Below the pieces are notes generated by a model. The model did no database searches, had not been told where the DNA came from, and worked only from the letters and a program-made list of their open reading frames with translations. A program made the position numbers and the translations under genes. Of a stretch of DNA of 64,000 bases, positions 48,450 through 52,155 are shown one piece after another. Every line of letters begins with the position of its first letter. Position 1 is the stretch's first letter. The stretch comes from Streptomyces sp. ISL-100 (GTDB lineage Bacteria; Actinomycetota; Actinomycetes; Streptomycetales; Streptomycetaceae): the NCBI RefSeq assembly GCF_018614615.1, contig NZ_JAGGOK010000069.1:1-64000 (forward strand), in the 5' to 3' direction.

Positions 48450-48737
48450 GGCCGCGGCCCCTTCACATATTGTGATCTTGCTCGCGCATCGTGCTGGGAC
48501 GATAAGTCGACCCCAGCCCCGCGGCAACGGGGCACGCCGCCGGTTCGGCCCCGCCGCACGCGGGACACGGTGAGCCTGCATCGGTTGTGCCCAGCTCTCC
48601 GCCCGGTAATCCGCTCGGAGGGCGCGGACGGAGTCCGCAGAGCGGCGTATGGCCATTCGGGTTATCGCCGTACGCTCCGGCGCCGCGCGAAAAACGGGGC
48701 GGCCCCCCGGCCCCCCGGCCCGTACACTGGGCGCAGC
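48450..48737. other. Divergent promoter region between DksA-like gene and ileS T-box
   Basis: No convincing gene is present in these 288 bases. A possible -10 element TACACT at 48723-48728 lies just before the start of the conserved leader RNA and may be the ileS promoter, though no clear -35 was seen. The left part must hold the promoter of the DksA-like gene. Confidence 0.5.
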
Positions 48738-49017
48738 GAAAGGCCTCGAAGGGGACGAGTAGCGTCGTACGCAGCCAAGAGCGACCCGGGGACGGTGTGA
48801 GCCCGGGGGCAGGCCCGACGTGAAGCATCACCCCTGAGCCGCCGGAAGAAAGCTTTGAACAGTGGGCTCCGCCCACGGACGCAAGGCCAGTAGAACCGGC
48901 ATCGCTGCCCCAATGAGGGGGTCACGGGCGCCGCCCGGGGCCAAGGAGGGTGGTACCGCGGGAGCAGCACAGCGCTCTCGTCCCTCCGACGGAAGTCACA
49001 GTCCGCCGGAGGAATCG
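48738..49017 (+). ncRNA. T-box riboswitch (Ile), translational type
   Basis: The leader contains the diagnostic T-box AGGGTGGTACCGCGG (48947-48961), with the TGGT bulge that pairs to the uncharged tRNA 3' end, and the downstream CTCGTCCCT (48977-48985). A likely Ile specifier ATC is at 48827-48829 in GAAGCATCACC. CCTCCGACGGA (48983-48993) can pair with TCCGCCGGAGG (49002-49012), hiding the ileS Shine-Dalgarno. No intrinsic terminator is present. Control should thus be at translation initiation: uncharged tRNA(Ile) frees the ribosome binding site. Confidence 0.93.
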
Positions 49018-52000
49018 ATGTCGATGTACCGCCAGGTGCCCGCCCAGGTCGACCTGCCCGCGCTCGAGCACGCCGTGCTCGAATTCTGGCGCGAGAACAA
49101 GGTCTTCTCGAAGAGTCTCGAACAGTCCGAGGGACGCCCGGAGTGGGTGTTCTACGAGGGCCCGCCCACCGCCAACGGCATGCCGGGCGCGCACCACATC
49201 GAGGCCCGCGTCTTCAAGGACGTCTTCCCGCGCTTCCGCACCATGCGGGGCTATCACGTCGCCCGCAAGGCCGGCTGGGACTGCCACGGCCTGCCCGTCG
49301 AGCTCGCCGTCGAGAAGGAGCTCGGCTTCAACGGCAAGAAGGACATCGAGGCGTACGGCATCGCGGAGTTCAACGCGAAGTGCCGCGAGTCGGTGACCCG
49401 CCACACCGACGCCTTCGCCGAGCTCACAACCCGCATGGGGTACTGGACGGACCTCGACAACGCGTACCGGACCATGGACCCGTCGTACGTCCAGTCGGTC
49501 TGGTGGTCCCTGAAGGAGATCTTCAACAAGGACCTGCTGGTCCAGGACCACCGCGTGGCCCCTTGGTGCCCCCGCTGCGGCACGGGCCTGTCCGACCACG
49601 AGCTGGCGCAGGGTTACGAGACGGTCGTCGACCCCTCGGTCTTCGTCCGCCTCCCCCTCACCTCGGGCCCGCTCGCGGGCGAGGCGTCGCTGCTGATCTG
49701 GACGACGACGCCCTGGACCCTCGTCTCCAACACGGCGGTGGCGGCCCACCCGGACGTCACCTACGTGGTGGCCACGAACGGCGAAGAGAACCTCGTCGTC
49801 GCCCAGCCCCTCCTGGAAAAGTCCCTGGGCGAAGGCTGGCAGTCCACCGGCCAGACCTTCACCGGCGCGGAGATGGAGCGCTGGACGTACGAGCGCCCCT
49901 TCGCCCTGGTCGAGTTCGAAAAGCCGGCCCACTTCGTGGTGAACGCCGACTACGTCACCACCGAGGACGGCACGGGTCTGGTCCACCAGGCCCCCGCATT
50001 CGGTGAGGACGACCTGAAGACCTGCCGGGCGTACGGCCTCCCGGTGGTCAACCCGGTCCTCCCGGACGGCACCTTCGCCCCGGAACTCACACTCGTCGGC
50101 GGCCAGTTCTTCAAGAAGGCCGACGAGGCCCTCACCGCGGACCTGGACGCGCGCGGCCTGCTCTTCCGCCACACCCCGTACGAGCACAGCTACCCGCACT
50201 GCTGGCGCTGCCACACCGCGCTTCTGTACTACGCACAGCCGTCCTGGTACATCAGGACCACCGCGGTCAAGGACGCGATGCTGCGCGAGAACGAACGGAC
50301 GAACTGGTTCCCGGACTCGGTGAAGCAGGGCCGCTTCGGCGACTGGCTGAACAACAACATCGACTGGGCGCTGTCCCGCAACCGCTACTGGGGCACCCCG
50401 CTCCCGATCTGGCGCTGCGAGGACAACCACCTCACGTGCGTGGGCTCGCTGGCCGAGCTCTCGGACCTGACCGGCACCGACCAGTCGTCCCTGGACCCGC
50501 ACCGCCCGTACATCGACGCGGTCACGTTCCCCTGCCCCACCTGTCAGCAGACCGCGACGCGCGTCCCCGAGGTCATCGACGCCTGGTACGACTCGGGCTC
50601 CATGCCGTTCGCGCAGTGGGGCTACCCGTACCAGAACAAGGAGCTCTTCGAGAAGCGCTACCCGGCGCAGTTCATCTCGGAGGCCATCGACCAGACCCGC
50701 GGCTGGTTCTACACGCTCATGGCGGTGGGCACGCTGGTCTTCGACAAGTCGTCGTACGAGAACGTCGTCTGCCTGGGTCACATCCTGGCCGAGGACGGCC
50801 GGAAGATGTCGAAGCACCTGGGCAACATCCTCCAGCCCATCCCGCTCATGGACCAGCACGGCGCCGACGCGGTCCGCTGGTTCATGGCGGCCGGCGGCTC
50901 GCCGTGGGCGGCGCGCCGAGTGGGCCACGGCACGATCCAGGAGGTGGTGAGGAAAACCCTCCTCACCTACTGGAACACGGTCGCCTTCCAGGCCCTGTAC
51001 GCCCGTACGTCGAACTGGGCGCCCAGCGCCGCGGACCCGGCCCCGGCCGACCGCCCGGTCCTGGACCGCTGGCTCCTGTCGGAACTCCACGCGCTGACGG
51101 ACCAGGTCACGCAGTCGATGGAGTCGTACGACACCCAACGAGCAGGCAAGCTCCTCTCTTCCTTCGTCGACGACCTGTCGAACTGGTACGTGCGCCGCTC
51201 GCGCCGCCGCTTCTGGCAGGGCGACAAGGCGGCGCTGCGCACCCTGCACGACGTAGTCGAGACGATCACGCGCCTGATGGCCCCGCTCACCCCCTTCATC
51301 ACCGAGCGGGTCTGGCAGGACATGATCGCCCCGGTCACGCCGGACGCCCCGGAGTCGGTCCACCTCTCGACGTGGCCGGACCCCGACCTCACAGCGATCG
51401 ACCCCACGCTCTCCCGGCAGATGGCGCTGGTACGCCGCCTGGTCGAGCTGGGGCGGGCGACGCGGGCGGAGTCGGGCGTCAAGACCCGCCAGCCGCTGTC
51501 CCGGGCCCTGATGGCGGCCTCGGGCTTCGAGTCCCTGACCCCGGAGCTCCAGGCGCAGATCACGGAGGAGCTGAACGTCTCCTCGCTCGCGTCCCTCTCG
51601 GAGGTCGGCGGCTCCCTCGTCGACACGACCGCCAAGGCGAACTTCCGCGCCCTCGGCAAGCGCTTCGGCAAGGGCGTCCAAGCAGTGGCCAAGGCGGTGG
51701 CGGAGGCGGACGCGGCAGCCCTCTCCCTTGCCCTGCGCGAGGGCACGGCAACGGTGCCGGTGGAGGGCGAATCGGTCACACTCTCCCCCGACGAAGTGAT
51801 CATCACCGAGACCCCGCGCGAGGGCTGGTCGGTGGCCTCGGACTCGGGCGCGACGGTCGCGCTGGACCTGGAGATCACCCCGGAGCTGCGGCGGGCGGGC
51901 CTGGCCCGTGACGCGATCCGGTTGATCCAGGAGGCCCGCAAGAACAGCGGCCTGGACGTGGCGGACCGCATCGCGGTCCGCTGGACCACCACGTCCGAGG

Positions 52001-52155
52001 AGACGGCGGCTGCCCTGTCCGAACACGCGGCCCTGATCGCGGACGAGGTCCTGGCCCTGGACTTCGCGTCCTCGGAAGCGGACGCCACGTACGGCACTCC
52101 CTTCACAGACGAGGGCCTGTCCCTGACCTTCCGCCTCCGCAAGACCGAGGCGTAA
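49018..52155 (+). CDS. ileS: Isoleucyl-tRNA synthetase, IleRS2 type with G-x-H-H motif
   Basis: Class I synthetase of 1045 residues that charges tRNA(Ile). The HIGH region reads GMPGAHHIEAR, with GAHH at residues 57-60 in place of HxGH; the KMSKS loop is KMSKH at 596-600 in EDGRKMSKHLGN. The CP1 editing domain includes LLIWTTTPWTLVSNTAVAAHP and EDGTGLVHQAPAFGEDD; the anticodon-binding helical domain lies after 690. The size and CP1 features fit the eukaryote-like IleRS2 clade. Literature that I recall links the GxHH form to very high mupirocin resistance. ATG at 49018 has the GGAGGA site inside the T-box sequestrator stem. Confidence 0.98.
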   Translation: MSMYRQVPAQVDLPALEHAVLEFWRENKVFSKSLEQSEGRPEWVFYEGPPTANGMPGAHHIEARVFKDVFPRFRTMRGYHVARKAGWDCHGLPVELAVEKELGFNGKKDIEAYGIAEFNAKCRESVTRHTDAFAELTTRMGYWTDLDNAYRTMDPSYVQSVWWSLKEIFNKDLLVQDHRVAPWCPRCGTGLSDHELAQGYETVVDPSVFVRLPLTSGPLAGEASLLIWTTTPWTLVSNTAVAAHPDVTYVVATNGEENLVVAQPLLEKSLGEGWQSTGQTFTGAEMERWTYERPFALVEFEKPAHFVVNADYVTTEDGTGLVHQAPAFGEDDLKTCRAYGLPVVNPVLPDGTFAPELTLVGGQFFKKADEALTADLDARGLLFRHTPYEHSYPHCWRCHTALLYYAQPSWYIRTTAVKDAMLRENERTNWFPDSVKQGRFGDWLNNNIDWALSRNRYWGTPLPIWRCEDNHLTCVGSLAELSDLTGTDQSSLDPHRPYIDAVTFPCPTCQQTATRVPEVIDAWYDSGSMPFAQWGYPYQNKELFEKRYPAQFISEAIDQTRGWFYTLMAVGTLVFDKSSYENVVCLGHILAEDGRKMSKHLGNILQPIPLMDQHGADAVRWFMAAGGSPWAARRVGHGTIQEVVRKTLLTYWNTVAFQALYARTSNWAPSAADPAPADRPVLDRWLLSELHALTDQVTQSMESYDTQRAGKLLSSFVDDLSNWYVRRSRRRFWQGDKAALRTLHDVVETITRLMAPLTPFITERVWQDMIAPVTPDAPESVHLSTWPDPDLTAIDPTLSRQMALVRRLVELGRATRAESGVKTRQPLSRALMAASGFESLTPELQAQITEELNVSSLASLSEVGGSLVDTTAKANFRALGKRFGKGVQAVAKAVAEADAAALSLALREGTATVPVEGESVTLSPDEVIITETPREGWSVASDSGATVALDLEITPELRRAGLARDAIRLIQEARKNSGLDVADRIAVRWTTTSEETAAALSEHAALIADEVLALDFASSEADATYGTPFTDEGLSLTFRLRKTEA

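Follow-up and report, generated by a model that had tools for sequence, protein, structure and literature searches.

The leader of ileS in Streptomyces sp. ISL-100 shows how a Streptomyces that appears to depend on one GxHH IleRS would adjust the supply of this enzyme to uncharged tRNA-Ile. In the window analyzed here, the whole stretch of 64,000 nucleotides at positions 1 to 64,000 of contig NZ_JAGGOK010000069.1, ileS follows a leader (48737-49017, + strand) that covariance-model alignment identifies as an isoleucine T-box, and which we read with high confidence as a tRNA-Ile-sensing translational T-box controlling the gene. A sequence-only reading of this stretch had proposed such a leader in front of a GxHH IleRS2 and had singled out their joint presence as notable.

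The ileS gene and the parts of its leader

The ileS gene (49018-52155, + strand) encodes an IleRS2 whose product scores 901.7 bits against TIGR00392, above the cut-off of 621.4, and carries the predicted GxHH signature as GAHH (49186-49197), which places it on sequence among the G/AXHH IleRS2 enzymes, together with a KMSKH motif (50803-50817). A protein search of the genome found one full IleRS gene; three further matches, at 27-29% identity, fall in a single 877-residue frame that presumably encodes another class I synthetase. The reading frame of ileS is open upstream as far as a GTG at 48862, within the T-box, and an automatic caller may therefore put the start in the wrong place; the real start is likely the ATG at 49018, which has its own Shine-Dalgarno sequence.

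A search of 501 bases with RF00230 returned a match to the full model (positions 1-219) at 48737-48988 with an E-value of 3.3e-11, a hit whose absence the sequence-only reading had named as refuting it, though the 54.4 bits obtained lie below the gathering score of 93 and an Rfam scan of the window at gathering scores accordingly gave no match. At its 5' end the match lies within one base of the span first proposed (48738-49017). One T-box was found in the genome with RF00230, and our own model R1, built with this leader included, returned the same place, the next match having an E-value of 2.09. Upstream of Stem I lies a putative -10 box, TACACT (48723-48728, + strand), and a TANACT-like hexamer precedes Stem I in 33/33 same-genus loci; a consensus scan of 48600-49060 found no full sigma-70 promoter.

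All parts of the leader lie on the + strand. Stem I (48742-48840) is of the long form according to the RF00230 alignment and helices 1-5 of the structure tested below, with a K-turn, a specifier loop, an internal AGAGCGA and a distal loop with GGTG; this long distal arm sets it apart from ultrashort Stem I, in which the specifier occupies the apical loop and a distal arm is absent. The AUC at 48827-48829, earlier named as the probable specifier, falls where RF00230, once aligned to the leader, has its specifier, and is found in all 33 same-genus loci. It stands before ileS and fits the GAU anticodon of the tRNA-Ile found in the genome. This tRNA has discriminator A and no encoded CCA, and should therefore end in ACCA when mature.

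Stem II (48842-48899; helices 6-7 of the alignment of 30 leaders described below) has an S-turn motif, AGTAGA, in its 3' strand and is capped by the apical palindrome GTGGGCTCCGCCCAC (48862-48876). We considered this palindrome as a mobile repeat and rejected the idea, since the genome holds one copy at up to one mismatch. The palindrome, or a form with at most two mismatches, lengthens the tip of Stem II in three of the 33 same-genus loci and in seven of the 79 named loci, L025 and L030 being among the carriers; the script anchor was misplaced at two of the 79. Streptomyces leaders also carry a CCCC-AATGA-GGGG hairpin where a Stem IIA-like element would sit.

The inner helix of Stem III follows at 48925-48937 (helix 8; both partners have changed in five of its five pairs, and 78.0% of its cells are paired), and then the antisequestrator at 48947-48985, formed by helices 48947-48950/48982-48985 and 48959-48965/48974-48980. 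It contains the T-box core AGGGTGGTACCGCGG (48947-48961), the T-box sequence of the sequence-only reading, here located inside the full-model match, and a UGGU bulge (48951-48954) of the UGGN type, complementary to the tRNA 3' end. The sequestrator (48983-49012) pairs 48983-48993 with 49002-49012 and has bases 48983-48985 in common with the antisequestrator. Inside it lies the Shine-Dalgarno sequence of ileS, GGAGG (49008-49012), five bases before the ATG.

Covariation and the expression platform

The structure was drawn on the window's sequence and evaluated in a structural alignment of 30 leaders, five from the same genus and 25 others. Over 42 pairs, 92.7% of cells held standard pairs, and 21 of the 42 had changed on both sides; none of 500 shuffles equaled the real alignment by any of the measures, and sliding the partners left no more than 59.6% paired. 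Stem III was the weakest helix (78.0%). The AGGG/CCCT helix is invariant in the 30 leaders and hence neutral, providing no covariation evidence. RNAalifold independently predicted much the same helices. Two rows of the alignment (L012 and L083) were trimmed slightly off near the Shine-Dalgarno sequence, where none of the counted pairs lies.

The segment proposed to mask the ribosome binding site is borne out by the pairing: CCTCCGACGGA (48983-48993) stands opposite TCCGCCGGAGG (49002-49012) with 10 of 11 standard pairs and one A.C mismatch, and GGAGG is covered. Sequestrator arms were extracted by rule in 75 of 80 regex-positive GxHH leaders, five being skipped (L118 among them). The four pairs inside CCTCC/GGAGG, typically GTCG/CGAC, ACGC/GCGT or GTGC/GCAC, could form in 115 of the 136 comparisons that joined arms of one species, versus 52.9% between families (34 genera, one row each), and none of 5000 shuffles reached so high an inner-pair score. 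Covariation in both aptamer and sequestrator supports a translational reading of the leader.

When the expression platform was folded, the sequestrator was the minimum free energy (MFE) structure at -39.1 kcal/mol versus -32.4 kcal/mol with the antisequestrator enforced, energies that ignore tRNA, Mg2+ and tertiary contacts. The Shine-Dalgarno bases had an unpaired probability of 0-0.12 in the fold of the whole leader; the predicted fold masks the binding site, whereas a site always exposed would have refuted the sequence-only reading. Because the sequestrator is the MFE structure and the Shine-Dalgarno bases are predicted to be masked, the default state is predicted to be OFF, and tRNA would be needed for ON. 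A search for intrinsic terminators, limited to that type, found none on the + strand in 48600-49060, in agreement with the sequence-only reading; the two terminator-like sites present are both on the - strand. The leader thus combines a Shine-Dalgarno sequestrator that is mutually exclusive with the antisequestrator and a lack of intrinsic terminator, as in translational T-boxes.

In the proposed mechanism, the AUC of Stem I would read the GAU anticodon of tRNA-Ile, and the distal loop of Stem I would probably stack on the tRNA elbow. The ACCA end of uncharged tRNA-Ile would pair with UGGU and hold the antisequestrator, which would take 48983-48985 from the sequestrator and free GGAGG. With charged tRNA, or none, the more stable sequestrator would keep ileS translation low. 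Family membership, the individual elements, their covariation and the mutual exclusion of the helices are established at the level of sequence, and we infer tRNA binding, charge sensing and the translation switch from the known class (PMC7583486, in the part of the review available to us).

Most annotated T-boxes act on transcription, according to the available part of the same review (PMC7583486), and the leader might likewise work through an intrinsic or Rho-dependent stop within it. We consider this very unlikely: the stretch 48600-49060 holds no + strand site resembling an intrinsic terminator, and the helix that rivals the antisequestrator holds the Shine-Dalgarno sequence, a property kept by compensatory change. 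The absence of a detectable T-box before 30 of 127 GxHH-side loci indicates that this control is dispensable in some lineages, and would suit a relic leader that has lost its switching, with ileS expressed constitutively at a low or a high level. Against such a relic, UGGU and the specifier are retained in 33/33 same-genus leaders and the helices covary beyond the genus, which makes it more improbable still. The reading as a translational tRNA-Ile T-box is the one we retain.

Distribution of leader forms and enzyme types

The pairing that the sequence-only reading had thought notable proved to be ordinary. Within a draw of 295 genomes from the class, GAHH, a T-box, a long Stem I and AUC occur together in 33/33 same-genus genomes, the genus being taken as Streptomyces, and the pairing recurs in many other genera examined. 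Of 80 loci with names (Streptomyces in the title of 78, Kitasatospora and Microtetraspora in one each), 79 have a T-box core with AUC and a long arm; the regex recognized 78 of these, and L215 was recognized by eye. The sole exception, L236 of Streptomyces sp. SID5785, retains a sequestrator hairpin but has other sequence upstream in place of the T-box core, through either a deletion or a misassembly. The leader described here is a standard Streptomyces feature.

RF00230 at E ≤0.01 missed the T-boxes of L074, L066, L140 and L181 and is therefore a poor test of absence, and R1 was built for this reason from 28 GxHH leaders. R1 matched 26/26 T-box loci outside its training and 0/26 T-box-free loci (agreement 52/52); every one of the 25 GxHH loci scored as T-box-free in the first set is negative by R1. 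It was used for detection only; we think that one helix in its RNAalifold structure, pairing the specifier with the T-box core, is spurious. The T-box regex missed two of 23 added loci (L332 and L334), both found by R1. A regex match in L118 was rejected, the locus having no specifier or Stem II and being negative by R1, and was counted as T-box-free; L121 was scored long by eye. For the Stem IIA-like element, an unanchored regex was discarded, as it matched 18/79 GxHH leaders, apparently via Stem III, and 61/63 HYGH leaders; a looser regex anchored directly after Stem II gave 0/79 in the first-set GxHH leaders and 63/63 in the HYGH leaders.

A first set of 168 ileS loci, each from a different one of the 295 genomes, was hand-picked for spread over genera; its GxHH members came from the upper part of the matches listed, with T-box matches known before picking, and nine HYGH loci (L124, L135-L142) were chosen for having a T-box match. 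The 104 GxHH loci of this set comprise 79 with a T-box (68 with long Stem I, 11 with short) and 25 in which none was detectable in the upstream stretch examined (L070, L075, L076 and 22 others), L105 and L128 having less than 700 bases of upstream sequence; eight of the 25 belong to family f27. Of 64 HYGH loci, 63 have a T-box, none with long Stem I, and one (L207) has none; leaving out the nine T-box-picked loci, the count is 54/55.

The added set drew on 24 genomes over five families absent from the first set, f7, f10, f11, f15 and f25, and parts of f13 and f23. An ileS match was obtained in 22 of them, giving 23 loci with a gene start, and G029 and G042 had no match at E 1e-60. The enzyme was read as GxHH at 22 of the 23 loci, the motif not being found in L333. 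R1 detected a T-box in 18/23 and none in L316, L319, L321, L322 and L326. Stem I has the long arm in 17 of the 18, recognized by regex in 14 and by eye in L332-L334, and is ultrashort in L317. Overall, the GxHH side accounts for 127 of 191 loci; a T-box precedes ileS in 97 of them, with Stem I long in 85 and short in 12, and the other 30 have none.

Of the 63 HYGH leaders, 62 have a Stem IIA-like GGG..CCC element directly after Stem II; the regex matched all 63, but the match in L167 is false by eye. On the GxHH side it was found in 0/79 first-set leaders and in one of 18 added leaders (L317, real-looking by eye), or 1/97 in total. In some GxHH leaders neither the distal arm of Stem I nor a Stem IIA motif is present. 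Two ileS copies of one genome (L320 and L338; 7% contamination) show a long Stem I with AUC and, by eye, no Stem II, with Stem III and the T-box core within some 30 bases of Stem I. The enzymes differ in a further motif: (K/R)MSKH, not KMSKS, was read in 30/30 same-genus GxHH loci (L001, L006-L034) and in 20/20 GxHH loci of other families (L295-L314), and KMSKS in 10/10 HYGH loci (L124, L135-L142 and L145, representing nine genes, L124 and L145 being one).

Both enzyme types occur in family f20, where each T-box leader has the form of its own type, and genus g30 contains a long leader (L072) and an ultrashort one (L074). On a tree from 163 N-terminal columns, with 79 first-set GxHH rows (eight of 33 Streptomyces) and six of 64 HYGH rows, long versus short Stem I requires eight changes, and well-supported branches force at least four for the short form; the count is rough, the tree being poorly resolved with 44/82 inner branches open and as few changes for the short form arising in 26/500 shuffles.

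These distributions raise the tentative possibility that two ileS T-box architectures are largely co-inherited in the class with two IleRS2 active-site types. The GxHH/KMSKH side would then be marked by the absence of a Stem IIA-like element and a long Stem I trimmed several times, and the HYGH/KMSKS side by an ultrashort Stem I with a Stem IIA-like element. Because L317 is a counter-example, we have lowered our estimate of co-inheritance from an even chance to slightly below one. If it holds, leader and enzyme would move as one cassette whose parts are partly interchangeable. Natural variants before one gene (long, trimmed, with or without the Stem IIA element, Stem II or the T-box itself) make the contribution of each part testable.

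Comparison with known T-boxes and IleRS2 enzymes

Sherwood 2015 is said to treat translational ileS T-boxes of Actinobacteria. The tracking of enzyme type by leader form, seen in a hand-picked sample with classes assigned by regex, covariance model and eye, is the only part of this analysis that may be new: among the papers listed by literature searches, none linked the form of the T-box to the type of IleRS in its title or opening abstract lines, and Sherwood 2015 might already list the split or the Streptomyces leaders. The available part of PMC7927825 does not deal with Streptomyces ileS, and TBDB, as far as its accessible description goes, covers translational T-boxes of Actinobacteria.

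On the enzyme side, the G/AXHH IleRS2 has been described in PMC10485003 (Brkic, 2023), whose accessible text names the S. griseus IleRS2 with a mupirocin Ki in the mM range, and a JBC 2016 paper, to judge by its accessible part, characterizes the S. griseus IleRS. The ileS product here resembles the enzymes of PMC10485003 in having GAHH in place of HXGH. Within its available extent, the main text of that paper uses neither the word T-box nor the word KMSKH, the motif being aligned in its Fig. 2b. With ileS T-boxes and the S. griseus GxHH enzyme both in print, the pairing of T-box and GxHH IleRS2 is not exceptional.

That actinobacterial T-boxes of this kind were already known, as the sequence-only reading stated, is confirmed by PMC1262725 (Seliverstov, 2005), which used two Streptomyces genomes and, in the part available, describes Shine-Dalgarno-masking T-boxes before ileS in several Actinobacteria. 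Those T-boxes and the present leader share the position before ileS, the lack of a terminator and the masking hairpin, with no essential difference within that part of the paper. Against the canonical RF00230 T-box, the leader matches the full model, including distal Stem I and the T-box core, and departs from it in having a sequestrator instead of a terminator and a score below the gathering cut-off. According to the sections available of the 2020 review (PMC7583486), Stem I is intermediate or ultrashort in most translational T-boxes, and the canonical long form is found in a few. The ultrashort ileS T-boxes of Nocardia farcinica and Mycobacterium tuberculosis, as presented there, have the isoleucine specificity, the Stem II S-turn and the translational output in common with the leader here, which differs from them in that a Stem IIA-like motif is not seen and Stem I is long, with a distal arm.
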